Positions 972 through 6,579 of a stretch of DNA of 64,000 nt are shown piece by piece. Under the pieces are notes generated by a model. That model saw only the letters and a list, made by a program, of their open reading frames with translations, made no database searches and was not told the origin of the DNA. Origin of the DNA: Synechococcus sp. SynAce01 (lineage in GTDB: Bacteria > Cyanobacteriota > Cyanobacteriia > PCC-6307 > Cyanobiaceae); NCBI RefSeq assembly GCF_001885215.1, contig NZ_CP018091.1:1240001-1304000 (forward strand). Direction: 5' to 3'. Made by a program: the position numbers and the translations under genes. Position 1 is the first letter of the stretch. The number at the start of each line of letters is the position of its first letter.

Positions 972-1058
972 CTCTAACGCTCCAGATCAGAAGCGAGCCC
1001 GCCTTTTGCCGTTAAACAATCACCCATTGATCCCATCTTCTGTATCTTAATGTTAGCC
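972..1058 (-). other. attC recombination site (hicBA cassette)
   Basis: An 87-bp imperfect palindrome bounded by CTCTAAC (972-978) and GTTAGCC (1052-1058). Inner arms AGATCAGAAG and CTTCTGTATCT pair imperfectly. On the minus strand the outer core reads GGCTAAC, matching the complement of the hicBA cassette start (GTTAGCT at 1590-1584) at six of seven bases. The crossover core reads GTTAGAG, one base off GTTRRRY. Confidence 0.65.
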
Positions 1059-1073
1059 GAGACCACGCCAACT

Positions 1074-1284
1074 TCACAGGTCGCCTGGCTCAAGGCCGGT
1101 GTGCTTGGCGATTTGGACAAGCATACTGGGGCCTATCTCCACGCCCTCATGGAAAGCAAAGACATAGTCCGGGTATCCCTCATGTTCAAGCGTCTTGTGT
1201 GATCCTGATTGTCGCTTAACTCTCCATCCAATTGACTTGAGCGCGGCAAAGACCTTTTTGCTTTGGGTGACGGCTATTGCTCAT
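1074..1284 (-). pseudogene. hicA: HicA-family toxin gene with a +1 frameshift near its start
   Basis: The minus strand encodes a HicA-like mRNA interferase: QSKKVFAALKSIGW, the RNA-binding/catalytic GSHKTL with its conserved histidine, then DYVFAFHEGVEIGP and IAKHTGLEPGDL before TGA at 1074. An ATG at 1284-1282 overlaps the hicB stop as ATGA, the usual translational coupling, but ATG to TGA is 211 bases, one more than a multiple of three. Reading Met-Ser-Asn and dropping one A gives a normal HicA start. As written, the toxin frame has no standard start codon. HicA would cleave mRNA; here it is probably inactive unless translated from a non-standard start or the base is an error. Confidence 0.75.
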
Positions 1285-1490
1285 GCAGAGAGTGGAAGTG
1301 AGAAGCTGATGCTGATTGGCTCGAATTCCCCATTTTCAAGTCGATCAGCGATGACGCGAAGAGCCAAAACCTCAGCCTTTGCCATCGCATTAGCAGAAGA
1401 ACCCCCATAAGCCAGAACTCCAGGCAGCTCTGGCACTTCGGCGATCCAGCGACCGTCTACTTCTTGCTCACACTCCAACGAGAAATTCAT
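1281..1490 (-). CDS. hicB: HicB-family antitoxin
   Basis: A 69-residue protein with the HicB (UPF0150-like) pattern: CEQEVDGRWIAEVPELPGVLAYG followed by a helix with NAMAKAEVLALRVIADRLENGE. HicB proteins bind and silence HicA toxins and may repress their operon; this short form has no separate C-terminal DNA-binding domain that I can see. A good Shine-Dalgarno (GGAGG) lies about five bases upstream of ATG 1490. It sits in its own integron cassette (972-1590) upstream of, and overlapping, hicA. Toxin-antitoxin cassettes are known to stabilise cassette arrays; here the toxin partner is frameshifted. Confidence 0.85.
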   Translation of the reverse strand: MNFSLECEQEVDGRWIAEVPELPGVLAYGGSSANAMAKAEVLALRVIADRLENGEFEPISISFSLPLSA

Positions 1491-1583
1491 GTCTTCCTCC
1501 CAGCAGAGGCGACGGGAGCAAGTTCCAGGTTAAAGCACATCCATTCCTTAAAAACAGCCTGGCCGATGCCCTCCTACCGATTC

Positions 1584-1671
1584 AGCTAACGCTCAAGATC
1601 AGCGGCGGGAAGTTGATCATTGCTCAGATTAAGAGTTGAATACGCCCGCCCGCTGAATCTTGATGTTAGAT
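1584..1671 (-). other. attC recombination site (5'-nucleotidase cassette)
   Basis: An 88-bp imperfect palindrome between AGCTAAC (1584-1590) and GTTAGAT (1665-1671); inner arms CTCAAGATCAGCGG and CCGCTGAATCTTGATG pair with one bulge. On the minus strand the outer core ATCTAAC is the exact complement of the start of its own cassette, GTTAGAT at 2741-2735. That self-complementarity is what a circularised cassette would produce. Confidence 0.8.
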
Positions 1672-1704
1672 ATCTCTGGAATCGCTTGCGGGAGCAGCCT
1701 CAAG

Positions 1705-2727
1705 CTAGCCCAACAGACTAGATTCATTGTCGCCGATTGTCAGTCCGACTTCCTCTATGCTAACAGTAGAAGCGACTGGCGCATTAACGGGTATTTCAAG
1801 ATTCCGATTAGCGATTCCGAATGGAATGTGAACCATAGGAATGTCACTGGCCGGCGACTCGAGATGACTGATCTGGTCATCAAAGAACATGTGTGGGCGC
1901 AAGATTGTGAGAATACGGTGCTTCTCCATGCCACCCAAAAAGAATGCCTCATCCACTGAAACCCCCCAAGCTTTGAGGGTCGTTACAACGCGTTCGTGAG
2001 CTGGCGCATTTCGCGCAGTCACAATTGCAATTCTCAGTATCTTCTTGTATTGAGGATCATCTTTTTGCTGCTTTTGTTCTAGCTTTTGCATGAAAGCAAG
2101 TTTTTTGAATAGGTCGGCCAAAGGCCCTGGCTGATGAGGCGTTTCCTGATGAACTGTTTCATGCGCCTGGAACTCTACAAGATCATTGTTCTTCTTGAAA
2201 ACGGCCTCCGCTTCATCGTTTGCAATCACACCGTCAAAGTCGAAAGCGACTCTTAGTTCGGCGTCGGCAGCATCATCGAAGACTTTTGACTGCAGCACAA
2301 CTCCAGCGGGATAATCCGAAGCAATTGCTTGCCGGACATCGCTTGGGTTTGCGCTTAGAAAGAGAGATGCGTTAAATGCAGGGAGATATTCGTGCGGCGA
2401 CCGGCCAGCAATAAATGCAGCTCTTGTTATATTAAGCGAGTAATGGTGAATAGAGCGAAAAACTCGTAGGCCTGTCTCAGGAGAATTCTTTGATAACAAA
2501 ACTACCTCAACAGGCTCTCTCTCGGGAAACGCCCGATTAATGCCAAGAAATCGACGAATGAAAGGAAATGCCACTCCCTTAGACAAGGGAATGTCAATAT
2601 TTTCCTCCTGGTGCACACGATATTTTTCAATGCCCTCCTCATTAAATATCCGATTTGACTCGGACAAGTCAAACAGGGCGCTTGAGGCGACGCCGATAAC
2701 CAGCTTTCGATCGATGGGGTAAGGCAT
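1705..2727 (-). CDS. 5'-nucleotidase, cytosolic cN-I-like family
   Basis: A 340-residue protein resembling the cN-I 5'-nucleotidase family (PF06189 type). It opens with KLVIGVASSALFDLSESNRIF, continues with PLSKGVAFPFIRRFLGIN, and carries the HAD-like nucleophile motif FDFDGVIAND near residue 165, a threonine motif IVTARNAP near 240, and an acidic motif MFFDDQ near 280. The family removes phosphate from nucleoside monophosphates in the cytoplasm. ATG 2727 is only eight bases from the attC at 2735, and the stop lies 34 bases before the next attC, so the gene fills one cassette. There is no strong Shine-Dalgarno. Family assignment is by recalled motifs. Confidence 0.8.
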   Translation of the reverse strand: MPYPIDRKLVIGVASSALFDLSESNRIFNEEGIEKYRVHQEENIDIPLSKGVAFPFIRRFLGINRAFPEREPVEVVLLSKNSPETGLRVFRSIHHYSLNITRAAFIAGRSPHEYLPAFNASLFLSANPSDVRQAIASDYPAGVVLQSKVFDDAADAELRVAFDFDGVIANDEAEAVFKKNNDLVEFQAHETVHQETPHQPGPLADLFKKLAFMQKLEQKQQKDDPQYKKILRIAIVTARNAPAHERVVTTLKAWGVSVDEAFFLGGMEKHRILTILRPHMFFDDQISHLESPASDIPMVHIPFGIANRNLEIPVNAPVASTVSIEEVGLTIGDNESSLLG

Positions 2728-2734
2728 AGAGCAA

Positions 2735-2824
2735 ATCTAACGCTCGCAATCACCTGGCCGCAAAGGGAGATTGCGATTCACAATGTCCATGCGGTGGCGG
2801 CTCAGGTGAATGGCGATGTTAGGC
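2735..2824 (-). other. attC recombination site (214-aa protein cassette)
   Basis: A 90-bp imperfect palindrome bounded by ATCTAAC (2735-2741) and GTTAGGC (2818-2824), both matching the attC core consensus. The inner pair TCACCTG / CAGGTGA and the segment CACCTGGCCGCAAAG are shared with the site at 3479-3579. The outer core GCCTAAC (minus strand) is the exact complement of this cassette's start, GTTAGGC at 3485-3479. The TAA stop of the upstream gene lies inside the core. Confidence 0.85.
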
Positions 2825-3463
2825 AGACCTAGCCGCCGCAATGAAGTCTTTCGCATCATCTGAATTACCGAGAGCCTGTCCGATGGCTACGGCTTCAACT
2901 AGCAAGCCATCAGTATTATGAACCATGATTCTTTTTTCAGCTTTACCGAGGCGATCTATTAGCTTCTTCTCCTGCTTCCGCGCTTGAGAGCTCAGGTGGA
3001 CACCTCCTTTGACGTTGGCAATATATTTAATCACCTCACGGCGCTTGAACCTCCTCCCGTGAATTACTCCTGAGGTGGAATCAAGGAAATCTGTCAGCGT
3101 GAATACACGCTCAAAGGGATAGCCGTTTTCACGAATTGGCTCCGGCGGCGGATTGCCAAGAGGACCATTTCCTTTGTGGATCACCATTGCAGCCATCTGG
3201 ACGCCTCTGAAGTCAGCTCCGCCGGCAAGAGCAATATCCATCAGGTTCCAATCATTCCCTAGAATCATGTCTAGATCTACTGCGATGAGCCTTGGCTGTT
3301 TAGGGCGTCCAAGTGATCTCCAGGCGTGCCCATATGCGACCTCCACGAGCAATCGACGCAGGACAGCGGTGCCCCGCCGAATTTCTGGATACTTGATATC
3401 TCCGCACCAAGTTGCCAAATATTCTAGATCCTCGGCCACTAGCAGAATTGATTCGGTGTCCAT
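2819..3463 (-). CDS. Unrecognised 214-residue cassette protein
   Basis: I do not recognise this protein. I place the start at ATG 3463 (MDTESILLVAEDLEYLATWC) because the longer frame from 3529 would begin inside the attC at 3479-3579. It looks soluble: an N-terminal helix, a hydrophobic strand followed by acids (LIAVDLDMILGNDWNLMDIALAGG) near residue 60-85, a proline-rich turn GNPPPEP near 105, then a basic stretch FKRREVIKYI and a lysine-rich helix near 165. No signal peptide or membrane segment is visible. The stop codon overlaps the attC core, so the whole gene is cassette cargo. Confidence 0.75.
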   Translation of the reverse strand: MDTESILLVAEDLEYLATWCGDIKYPEIRRGTAVLRRLLVEVAYGHAWRSLGRPKQPRLIAVDLDMILGNDWNLMDIALAGGADFRGVQMAAMVIHKGNGPLGNPPPEPIRENGYPFERVFTLTDFLDSTSGVIHGRRFKRREVIKYIANVKGGVHLSSQARKQEKKLIDRLGKAEKRIMVHNTDGLLVEAVAIGQALGNSDDAKDFIAAARSA

Positions 3464-3478
3464 GGTTTGAATAGTTCC

Positions 3479-3579
3479 GCCTAACGCTGCCATCACCTGG
3501 CCGCAAAGGTTGTGTGTAACGAGAGCCACAGTGATACAGGGCTTATTTGTGGCAGCTCAGGTGAATGGCTGTGTTAGGG
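3479..3579 (-). other. attC recombination site (GIY-YIG cassette)
   Basis: A 101-bp imperfect palindrome bounded by GCCTAAC (3479-3485) and GTTAGGG (3573-3579), followed by a G run. Inner arms CATCACCTGGCC and CAGCTCAGGTGAATG closely match the site at 2735-2824, so the two cassettes share an attC type. The outer core differs at two positions from the complement of its cassette start (GTTAAGC at 4034-4028). Confidence 0.8.
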
Positions 3580-3691
3580 GGGGGGCATCCTTGGCAACAT
3601 TTAGAATAACGCCCGAACGGACCATAGTCACCAGCTACATGCCCTTATCGGGCACAGGCAACAAAGTTCGGTACAACCAGCAGTGCCACTC

Positions 3692-3988
3692 ATGAAGCAG
3701 GTATACAAGATCACATATCCGACAGGCAAGATTTACATTGGCAAGGACAGTGTTGGGAGCGCCCGATACATGGGCAGCCCTGACATGAACCTGGTTAACG
3801 CTGACTTTGAAACACTTCCAGATCACATTCGCAGAGACTACACCCTGCGAAAGGAGATTCTCTGGGAATCTGATAGTGCAACTGAAGCCGAGCTCTCCGC
3901 AAAGGAAGTAGAGATGATCCGTCTCTATCGATCCAATGACCCAACGGTTGGATACAATAGATGGCCAAAGCCATCAACTGATGATTGA
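3692..3988 (+). CDS. GIY-YIG domain small protein, antisense to the cassette array
   Basis: A 98-residue frame starting at ATG 3692 (MKQVYKITYPTGKIYIGKD) contains the two halves of a GIY-YIG core, VYKIT and IYIGKD, with a glutamate-rich helix (EAELSAKEVEMIRLYRS) that could hold the metal-binding glutamate, and ends GYNRW. GIY-YIG domains are nuclease folds found in homing endonucleases, UvrC and small orphan proteins. No DNA-binding domain follows, so the target is unknown. The gene is on the plus strand while all the other cassette genes are on the minus strand; no convincing minus-strand gene fills this cassette (3485-4034). An upstream ATG at 3683 is possible. Confidence 0.7.
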   Translation: MKQVYKITYPTGKIYIGKDSVGSARYMGSPDMNLVNADFETLPDHIRRDYTLRKEILWESDSATEAELSAKEVEMIRLYRSNDPTVGYNRWPKPSTDD

Positions 3989-4027
3989 GTGGAGAATTGT
4001 TCTTCTATGGAACCAAATCAGCAACCC

Positions 4028-4099
4028 GCTTAACGACCAAGCTGCGCGGCACAAACGAAGCGAAGCGTAGTTTGTGCCCGAACGAGCGCCTTGTTAGCG
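4028..4099 (-). other. attC recombination site (lipoprotein cassette)
   Basis: A 72-bp imperfect palindrome bounded by GCTTAAC (4028-4034) and GTTAGCG (4093-4099), with perfect inner arms GGCACAAAC and GTTTGTGCC. On the minus strand the crossover core is GTTAAGC (consensus) and the outer core CGCTAAC is the exact complement of the cassette start GTTAGCG at 4642-4636. It is shorter and of a different family from the sites at 2735 and 3479. Confidence 0.8.
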
Positions 4100-4621
4100 T
4101 TTACTATCATTATCATTCGACTGTAAGGATGGCAAGTAATCGAGACGCTCAGTTACGCTTAACGTACAAGTAGCCTCGCACTTCATACCTTCCTTAGACT
4201 CTCCTTTTGACGTATGTTCGGATATTCCTTCTAGCCTCATTTCTGACTGGGAGTATTTGACTTGAGAAATACCCCCAAAACTGACAGTAAACGGCAGATA
4301 GTATTTGTACGGATTCTTAATCTTCTCAACCATTTTCTCTGGAACAAGAAAATCACTGAGATGAACAGATCCATACCTGGAATGTTGATCTTTTGTTTCG
4401 TTATACCAATGAACAAGATCACCTGAGTAGCCCCCGGCCTCTCTCACATGGTTTTCGTAACAAGTACCTTCCACTTTTAAATATTCAATGAATTTATATT
4501 CATCCTTGGGCTTTTCTTCAGAACAAGCTTGCAGAACAAGCTTGCAGAACAAGCTTGCAGAACAAGCTTGCAGAACAAGCACTGTAACTAAAGAAACCAT
4601 CATTTTCTGAATGCCTCTCAT
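4094..4621 (-). CDS. Cassette-encoded lipoprotein with a repeat-expanded signal peptide
   Basis: A 175-residue protein starting MRGIQKMMVSLVTVLVLQAC. The lipobox-like LVLQAC appears twice, near residues 15-20 and 28-33, because the signal region contains a 13-bp tandem repeat. Removing three repeat units (39 bases, 13 codons) would give an ordinary lipoprotein start, LVLQAC followed directly by SEEKPKDEY. The mature part is hydrophilic, with cysteines at positions near 53, 149 and 153, and belongs to no family I recognise. The start lies 15 bases inside the cassette boundary at 4636-4642 and the TAA overlaps the attC core, so it is the cassette nearest the integrase. Surface anchoring is inferred from the lipobox only. 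Confidence 0.75.
   Translation of the reverse strand: MRGIQKMMVSLVTVLVLQACSASLFCKLVLQACSEEKPKDEYKFIEYLKVEGTCYENHVREAGGYSGDLVHWYNETKDQHSRYGSVHLSDFLVPEKMVEKIKNPYKYYLPFTVSFGGISQVKYSQSEMRLEGISEHTSKGESKEGMKCEATCTLSVTERLDYLPSLQSNDNDSKR
4521..4580. repeat. 13-bp tandem repeat, four full copies plus 8 bases
   Basis: The unit GAACAAGCTTGCA occurs at 4521-4533, 4534-4546, 4547-4559 and 4560-4572, followed by GAACAAGC at 4573-4580. Copies are identical, pointing to recent expansion. It lies inside the signal-peptide codons of the lipoprotein gene at 4094-4621. Thirteen is not a multiple of three, so gain or loss of one or two copies would shift the reading frame. Confidence 0.95.
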
Positions 4622-4635
4622 ATATTTTCTTTAAA

Positions 4636-4642
4636 CGCTAAC
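4636..4642 (-). other. Crossover core joining the integrase side to the first cassette (attI-like)
   Basis: On the minus strand GTTAGCG marks the right end of the cassette array. It complements the outer core of the attC at 4093-4099, as expected for the first base triplet of an inserted cassette. The attI site, if any survives, should lie in 4643-4812, next to the 3' end of the integrase remnant. I could not define integrase-binding sites there. Confidence 0.5.
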
Positions 4643-4654
4643 TTGTTATTGGAC

Positions 4655-4667
4655 GGTTCTGAGAACC
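4655..4667. repeat. Palindrome GGTTCTGAGAACC
   Basis: A perfect 13-base palindrome (arms GGTTCT/AGAACC around one G), 13 bases to the right of the first cassette boundary. The same GAGAACC/GGTTCTC word recurs at 4779-4798 and 6556-6571. Confidence 0.7.
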
Positions 4668-4778
4668 AACCTGCAGGGCGCCGCTGCTTCTGTGAACCCT
4701 GCTCATGGCGAAGGCGCCTCTTGGTCAGAATCAAGTAGCCGTCTAGATCCTTAGGATCCGCAAGCACAATCCGTCCGC

Positions 4779-4798
4779 GGTTCTCTGGTCAGAGAACC
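4779..4798. repeat. Inverted repeat just downstream of the integrase remnant
   Basis: Arms GGTTCTCTG (4779-4787) and CAGAGAACC (4790-4798) form a perfect 9-bp stem with a two-base loop. It follows the 3' end of the integrase remnant on the minus strand. It is not followed by a T run, so it is not a clear intrinsic terminator. Confidence 0.7.
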
Positions 4799-4812
4799 AC
4801 ATGTTCAATCTG

Positions 4813-5416
4813 CTACATAAAATCTGCGGGGCTGCTCACGCCCAGGGGGCCTCTGTTCAGCACATGCGTGTAGATCATGGTGGTGCCCACATCCTGATGG
4901 CCCAGCAACTCCTGAATCGTACGGATGTCCTGGCCCCGTTCCAGAAGGTGCGTTGCAAAGGAGTGGCGAAAGGTATGGCAGCTGGCAGCTTTGCTCACGC
5001 CAGCATTAGCCACCGCCTGTTTCACGGCTCGCTGCACCACGGTGGGGTCGAGGTGGTGTCTTCCCTGGGCCCCTGTTGTGCGATCCAGCCAGCGTTTCTG
5101 CTGGGGAAACACCCACTGCCAGGCCAGCTGCCAGATCCCCCTGGTGCAACCGCCGAATCTCTAATAGATGCTGCCGAAGATCAGCCATCTGGCTCTGGGG
5201 CAGCAATGTGAGCCGATCCTTCCCGCCCTTGCCGTCCCGAACCAACAGTTCACGACGCTCGAAGTCAAGATCTTTCACCCGTAATCTCAGCGCCTCCATC
5301 AGCCGAAGGCCACTGCCATACAACAGACCCACCACCAATGCCGGCACCCCTTCTAGCCGCTGACGCACGGCTTTCACCTCCCCCTCGCTGAGCACCCCTG
5401 GATGCAGCTTCAGCAT
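4813..5416 (-). pseudogene. intI: Integron integrase remnant (IntI-type tyrosine recombinase)
   Basis: Two minus-strand frames together encode the catalytic half of an integron integrase. The first (from about 5416) has VLSEGEVKAV, the arginine motif GSGLRLMEALRLRVKDLDF, lysine motif VRDGKGGKDR, and ends near LHQGDLAAG at about 5124. The second resumes with [11 protein letters not shown] and continues through the IntI-like block [45 protein letters not shown], stopping at 4813. About 20-25 codons and the frame are lost between them, and the roughly 90-residue N-terminal core-binding domain is absent: sequence upstream is the 5' end of hisC on the other strand. All catalytic residues (R, K, HxxR, H, Y) survive, but the enzyme cannot be made intact. 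It runs in the same direction as the cassettes. Confidence 0.9.
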
Positions 5417-5451
5417 TCCGCGTTGCAGCGGCCTCCCTACGCTGCCGGAGG

Positions 5452-6579
5452 TTGTCGCTCCGCTGTGCCTTGACCCCTTGCCTGCCTGACGGTCCCCAGG
5501 CCCGGCCCGAGGTGGAGAGCCTGCAGTCATACAGCGCTCCGCTGGAAGGGCGGCGCGGTTTGCTGCGGCTCGATTTCAACGAAAACACCATCGGCCCCAG
5601 TCCGCAGGTGGTGGCGGCGATCCGCGCCATCCCGGCCGATCACTACGCCATCTACCCCGAATACGACGGCCTGCGTGAAGCGGTGCTGGCCAACCTGGGA
5701 TTGCCGGCCCTCAGCCCTGGCCACATCGGCCTGTTCAACGGCGTCGATGCGGCGATCCATGCTCTCTTTCATGCCTTCGGAGCTGCGGGCAACGTTCTGC
5801 TCACCACCAGCCCCACCTTCGGCTACTACAGCCCCTGCGCCCAGATGCAGGGCATGGCGATCGAGGCGATCCCGTACCTGGGAGCGGATTTCAGCTTCCC
5901 CCTGGGGGCGATCCGCACCGCCCTGTTCAAGCGGCCCAGCCCGCGCCTGTTGCTGCTCTGCAATCCCAACAACCCCACCGGCACTCGCCTGGCTCCCGAG
6001 TTGATCCTGGAGCTGGCTGCTGCCGCACCGGCCACGCTGGTGGTGGTGGATGAGCTCTATGAGGCCTTCACCGGCGACAGCGTGCTGCCCAGCGCCGACT
6101 TCAGCGCCACACCCAACCTGCTGGTGCTGCGCTCCCTGGCCAAAACGGCCGGCTTGGCCGGGTTGCGTATCGGTTTTGCGATCGGAGCGAAGGCGGTGGT
6201 GGATCGCCTCAGCCGTGTCACCGGCCCCTACGACATCAACAGCTTTGCGGTCACGGCCTCCCGGGCGGCTTTGGCGGATCAGGCCTTCACCGATGCCTAC
6301 GTGGCCGAGGTGTTGCGCTCCCGTAGTTGGCTGCTGGAGCAGCTGCGGGGCGGGGCCGTGCGTCACCACGCCGCCGGTGGCAACTACCTGCTGATCTGGC
6401 CCAGCCGTCCCGTGCAGGCGGTGGAGGCGGAACTGCGCGCGACAGGCATTCTGGTGCGCTCAATGGCCGGCAAGCCCCTGATCGATGGCTCCTTGCGCGT
6501 CAGCATCGGCACCAAGGAGCAGATGGAGCATTTCTGGACGGCCTACCGCGAAATTGAGAACCTAGGTTCTCTCGCTTGA
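5452..6579 (+). CDS. hisC: Histidinol-phosphate aminotransferase-like PLP enzyme
   Basis: A 375-residue fold-type I aminotransferase. It shows RLDFNENTIGPSP near residue 39, NPNNPTG at 171-177, DELYEAF from residue 200, and the PLP-binding lysine at 231 in SLAKTAGLAGLRIGF. HisC converts imidazole-acetol phosphate and glutamate to histidinol phosphate; related enzymes act on other amino acids, so the exact substrate is less certain than the fold. The start is unclear: ATG 5452 or GTG 5512, the latter just before the conserved LQSYSAPLEGRRG. The 5' end abuts and partly overlaps the integrase remnant on the other strand, so a rearrangement joined them here. The last codons contain a 16-base perfect palindrome. 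Confidence 0.85.
   Translation: MSLRCALTPCLPDGPQARPEVESLQSYSAPLEGRRGLLRLDFNENTIGPSPQVVAAIRAIPADHYAIYPEYDGLREAVLANLGLPALSPGHIGLFNGVDAAIHALFHAFGAAGNVLLTTSPTFGYYSPCAQMQGMAIEAIPYLGADFSFPLGAIRTALFKRPSPRLLLLCNPNNPTGTRLAPELILELAAAAPATLVVVDELYEAFTGDSVLPSADFSATPNLLVLRSLAKTAGLAGLRIGFAIGAKAVVDRLSRVTGPYDINSFAVTASRAALADQAFTDAYVAEVLRSRSWLLEQLRGGAVRHHAAGGNYLLIWPSRPVQAVEAELRATGILVRSMAGKPLIDGSLRVSIGTKEQMEHFWTAYREIENLGSLA
6556..6571. repeat. 16-base perfect palindrome at the 3' end of hisC
   Basis: GAGAACCTAGGTTCTC reads identically on both strands and encodes part of the C-terminal ENLGSLA tail of HisC. It shares the GAGAACC/GGTTCTC word with the palindromes at 4655 and 4779. Confidence 0.75.

Follow-up and report, generated by a model that had tools for sequence, protein, structure and literature searches.

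A perfect 13-bp repeat in the signal peptide of a cassette-borne lipoprotein gene of Synechococcus sp. SynAce01 suggests recent slippage expansion and a latent low-rate switch

Within a stretch of 64,000 nucleotides of the Synechococcus sp. SynAce01 genome, referred to here as the window, we identified a perfect 13-bp tandem array in the signal-peptide coding region of a predicted lipoprotein gene that appears to lie on an integron cassette. The explanation we favor, and consider moderately probable, is that the array arose by recent replication slippage in a cassette of foreign origin and would behave as a passive, low-rate and reversible ON/OFF hotspot in a gene whose product is lipidated most likely on Cys20. 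The two features at the center of this reading are:

4519..4580, minus strand: array of 13-bp units CTTGTTCTGCAAG, 4.8 perfect copies, within the signal-peptide coding region (TRF, Markov simulations)
4094..4621, minus strand: predicted lipoprotein of 175 aa without known family; Cys20 in the first lipobox, Cys33 in the duplicated lipobox

The array was the top TRF match of the window, with period 13, a length of 62 bp, 4.8 copies, 100% matches and a score of 124 at positions 4519-4580, compared with 63 for the second-best score. Read on the coding (minus) strand, it comprises four full units CTTGTTCTGCAAG and 10 of the 13 bases of a fifth, as described in the initial annotation, although its left edge lies 2 bases beyond the 4521 given there. 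The longest run in which each base equals the base 13 positions earlier was 49, while 20 simulations of 64 kb each under an order-2 Markov model gave at most 16 for any period between 5 and 60; a perfect 62-bp array is, thus, far above chance. Against a repeat background of 356.5 kb (13% of the SynAce01 genome), it was the sole perfect array with at least three copies and a unit longer than 8 bp, and one longer, impure array (48-bp unit, 79%) scored slightly above it. The two-unit pattern had no other occurrence in the genome. Because the unit ends (CAAGCTTG) are palindromic, the single-stranded array folds into hairpins, with a folding energy of −19.2 kcal/mol versus −12.3 on average for shuffled sequences (z −3.3; better than 200 of 200 shuffles). 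Hairpins of this self-complementary unit type promote slippage but give no rate. A terminator-like match inside the array is simply the hairpin of the unit, and we did not interpret it as a terminator.

The product of the minus-strand open reading frame (ORF) at 4094-4621 starts with MRGIQKMMVSLVTVLVLQACSASLFCKLVLQACSEEKPKDEYKF. The array occupies about codons 15-35, placing a non-triplet repeat near the 5′ end, and is in frame, encoding LVLQACSASLFCKLVLQAC; this translation bears out the doubling of the lipobox LVLQAC proposed earlier. By hydropathy, the signal features of an SPase II substrate are present, with a basic n-region (MRGIQK), a hydrophobic h-region (MMVSLVTVLVL) and a lipobox with its cysteine (LQAC), and hydropathy peaks at 2.77 just ahead of Cys20. 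Since this peak immediately precedes Cys20, and the first lipobox and Cys20 itself remain unchanged, lipidation of Cys20 would be expected in every ON state. The host also has Lgt and LspA, in keeping with a lipoprotein of this class. The initial annotation had also suggested that copy number alters which cysteine is lipidated. This is weak, as Cys20, its position and the sequence preceding it are constant in all ON states; use of Cys33 is possible, though not favored. The likely effect of four copies as opposed to one is a mature N-terminal tether that extends 13 residues further after Cys20. No family was found for the 175-aa protein in Pfam, NCBIfam or PHROG, a PDB sequence search with it gave no match and Rfam also gave none. 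An AlphaFold2 model built from a two-row alignment contained mostly beta strands at a pLDDT of 49, too poor for a fold search. A PADLOC match of the lipoprotein to PrrC (E 0.012) was dismissed as chance.

The consequences of copy number were followed in silico for 0-10 full units. Full-length protein resulted from n = 1, 4, 7 and 10, and a truncated product from n = 0, 2, 3, 5, 6, 8 and 9, with early stops after 25-56 codons for n = 0, 2, 3, 5 and 6 and after 25-69 codons across all OFF states tested. The earlier arithmetic, by which only copy numbers equal to the present one modulo three keep the mature protein in frame, holds throughout this series. Starts in frame with the mature domain, which could rescue an OFF state, were limited to TTG codons within the array, which lack an evident Shine-Dalgarno sequence, and the n = 0 form contained no start codon at all in that frame. 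As in opa-type loci, gain or loss of units, therefore, toggles in silico between full-length and truncated product.

A search of genome contigs returned a single homologue, 43% identical, on a Deltaproteobacteria metagenome-assembled genome (MAG) contig, L004. Taking the ATG at position 302 of that contig as its start, the homologue has a 20-residue signal peptide with a single lipobox at residue 20 (MGAKTGVVVAIILILISNGC), a few residues beyond which lies the conserved KDEYKFIEY. If three units are taken out, the window gene reads MRGIQKMMVSLVTVLVLQAC followed by SEEKPKDEYKF, and the lipobox of this one-copy form falls at residue 20, as in L004. Because the removal yields a 20-residue signal like that of the homologue, the gene in its present form is most plausibly an ancestor plus 39 bp, exactly three units, the ancestral length being derived from this one sequence at 43% identity. 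The repeat-poor ancestor would, as had been anticipated, have encoded a normal lipoprotein. In a comparison that likewise comprises one sequence only, the retention of the repeat among homologues that characterizes opa-type loci was not seen, L004 having one lipobox and no repeat. Identities of 0.57/0.65/0.40 at the three codon positions between the two genes fit a constrained protein family. Homologues were absent from 60 relatives and 388 class genomes, among which the lipoprotein gene is a singleton, and from the plasmids and viral contigs searched. The ancestral stretch CTTGTTCTGCAAGCTTGTTCTG contains a 9-bp direct repeat, CTTGTTCTG, at 13-bp spacing, which would offer a natural seed for slippage.

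These data suggest the following course of events. An ancestral signal peptide (MRGIQKMMVSLVTVLVLQAC followed by SEEKP) would by chance have borne the direct repeat CTTGTTCTG at its 13-bp spacing, and mispairing there, aided by the self-complementary unit ends (CAAGCTTG), may have led to the gain of three units (39 bp) with the frame kept. Any later change in unit number other than a multiple of three would stop translation early and abolish the lipoprotein, and further slippage could restore the reading frame, making the ON/OFF change reversible. In the present ON state, Cys20 would most likely be lipidated and carry the hydrophobic tether with its 13 additional residues. The array is probably young.

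Alternatively, the additional 39 bp may represent a fixed in-frame expansion that lengthens the N-terminal tether or doubles the lipobox, neutral or mildly useful and free of switching. The net change of exactly 39 bp, in frame, is compatible with this, as is the presence of Lgt (PF01790) and LspA (PF01252) in the host, but the identity of all copies points to a young array or to turnover, and arrays of non-triplet units remain prone to mutation; we regard such a fixed expansion as distinctly improbable. The in-frame state is expected in one of three cases by chance anyway, which counts against the fixed expansion and also against the slippage scenario we prefer.

Published systems give some guidance on rates. 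Tandem repeats undergo 1e-3 to 1e-6 mutations per generation, with purer arrays changing faster, and a review names unit number as the chief determinant of instability (PMC3899988). Fewer than five units is a small number in this respect, and arrays with few copies of a long unit usually change at a low rate. For E. coli variable-number tandem repeat (VNTR) alleles of up to 13 units, a constant low rate was reported with a detection limit of 4.4e-5, and about half of the changes involved several units at once (PMC3777172). A further point against slippage expansion is that growth from n = 1 to n = 4 by single steps crosses two OFF states; given the frequency of multi-unit VNTR changes, a single jump of +3 is possible. 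That such a design can work is known from opa genes, which have CTCTT repeats in their leader-peptide region and a switching rate of about 1e-3 (PMC3960869, PMC3899988). For the window array, we infer a low slippage rate in a gene that would be expressed and whose switching would not be under selection.

The last point separates this reading from that of a selected phase-variation (contingency) locus, at which frequent slippage would turn a surface lipoprotein ON and OFF adaptively, for example, in response to phage or grazers. Such a locus would resemble the opa leader peptides in having a non-triplet repeat near the start of a gene for a surface protein (PMC3960869, PMC3899988), and it would account for perfect array copies, self-complementary units and a downstream ORF that is intact although stepwise growth passes through OFF intermediates. 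On the other hand, the copies are few and the unit is long, in the range where E. coli VNTR alleles of up to 13 units change at a constantly low rate (PMC3777172), the sole homologue lacks the repeat, the repeat recurs nowhere else in the genome and the gene is a singleton among the 388 genomes of the class sample. We, therefore, judge a selected contingency locus unlikely.

The initial annotation had described the gene as cassette-borne. This is supported by an attC-like hairpin after the gene, by four more such sites at 974-3579 and by integrase remnants at 4813-5530, with attC-like sites called by a simple script that is uncalibrated as an attC model:

4028..4638, minus strand: integron gene cassette with the lipoprotein gene, first in the array (G+C; attC; sequence)
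4028..4099, minus strand: attC-like hairpin of the lipoprotein cassette (CGCTAAC ... GTTAAGC), 3′ of the gene
974..1056, minus strand: attC-like site, same array
1584..1671, minus strand: attC-like site, same array
2735..2824, minus strand: attC-like site, same array
3479..3579, minus strand: attC-like site, same array
4813..5530, minus strand: integron integrase pseudogene, frameshifted and truncated, with TIGR02249 pieces in two frames

A cassette boundary, GTTAGCG, was read from the sequence near 4632-4638. The attC site at 4028-4099 matches a site in plasmid pTBH13 of the gammaproteobacterium Thiolapillus brandeum with 89% identity across 66 bp and is unlike the remaining sites in the array. 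Because of this resemblance, and because the cassette has a G+C content of 0.416 in a window of 0.633, a foreign origin of the cassette appears likely. None of the relatives searched, among them members of the same genus, carries the cassette, and the neighboring aminotransferase reaches no more than 78% identity with its best match in that genus. The linked integrase is not intact; an intact IntI frame lies elsewhere in the genome (G000:C1:183055). Photosystem II genes mark the host as cyanobacterial, Synechococcus elongatus being the sole match in the control set, and it is probably a picocyanobacterium.

This setting bears on two further explanations. The array could be a neutral repeat in a decaying cassette that is not expressed and lies next to a defunct integrase, with the gene silent and its frame irrelevant. 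Although the integrase is a pseudogene, cassettes are mostly promoterless (PMC3607928) and a promoter search found none convincing for the lipoprotein gene, the 142 codons 3′ of the array are uninterrupted and retain the motifs conserved in the homologue, whose codon-position identities suit a constrained family; we consider a silent cassette very improbable. Quite unlikely, too, is a true contingency switch on a mobile cassette, in which the self-complementary units would speed slippage and the switch could cross phyla with its gene.

Among known systems, Neisseria opa genes share with the window gene a non-triplet repeat in the signal-peptide coding region whose copy number sets the frame of an exported surface protein. 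They differ in that the window unit has 13 bp rather than the five of CTCTT and fewer than five copies, and in that the window gene is a single integron cassette gene of a cyanobacterium that encodes a lipoprotein, not a beta-barrel, and for which switching is putative. Bacterial minisatellite or VNTR loci, such as those used in E. coli O157 MLVA (PMC3777172), resemble the window array in being perfect and expected to slip, with single- and multi-unit steps occurring in such loci; in contrast to these, the window array lies in a signal peptide and its unit length is no multiple of three, which would make most changes inactivating. With chromosomal integron cassettes, the window cassette shares an attC-like hairpin, a cassette-sized single gene, mixed attC types and a nearby integrase remnant, but here the cassette gene itself bears a frame-breaking repeat, for which a literature search returned no report in an integron cassette gene. 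If switching occurs, a cyanobacterium would harbor a phase-variable gene on an integron cassette that can be transferred; to judge by the few papers that a literature search returned, slippage-based phase variation appears little studied in this group. If it does not, the gene still illustrates clearly how a lipobox can be doubled through the gain of exactly three slippage units.

Several observations concern the surrounding integrons. In all four integron loci of cyanobacteria that we examined (two from SynAce01 and those of G204 and G008), the attC sites are located past the 3′ end of intI; hence, the integrase of the four loci (window 974-5530; G000:C1:168844-184035; L051; L053) reads toward the cassettes, an atypical layout described for Treponema (PMC3607928). 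Another cassette of the window array, at 1705-2727, encodes a 5′-nucleotidase-family protein (PF06189, E 1e-127) that also matches the PADLOC candidate defence family PDC-S08 (1.8e-138), and a further one contains a small minus-strand ORF (1281-1490) that by eye is HicB-type antitoxin-like. The ORF at 3683-3988 runs opposite to the other cassette genes and, judged by eye, may contain a GIY-YIG-like motif; its PHROG homing-endonuclease matches are weak (E 0.04-0.07). On pTBH13 (L050), which bears the related attC site, TIR-domain and caspase-family genes occupy neighboring positions. Finally, a tyrosine recombinase frame of 317-331 aa is present in three identically scoring copies (G000:C1:179343-182598 and 260247-261023), and the two at 179-183 kb, which are located next to the intact integron integrase, each adjoin the same transposase-like ORF of 352 aa.
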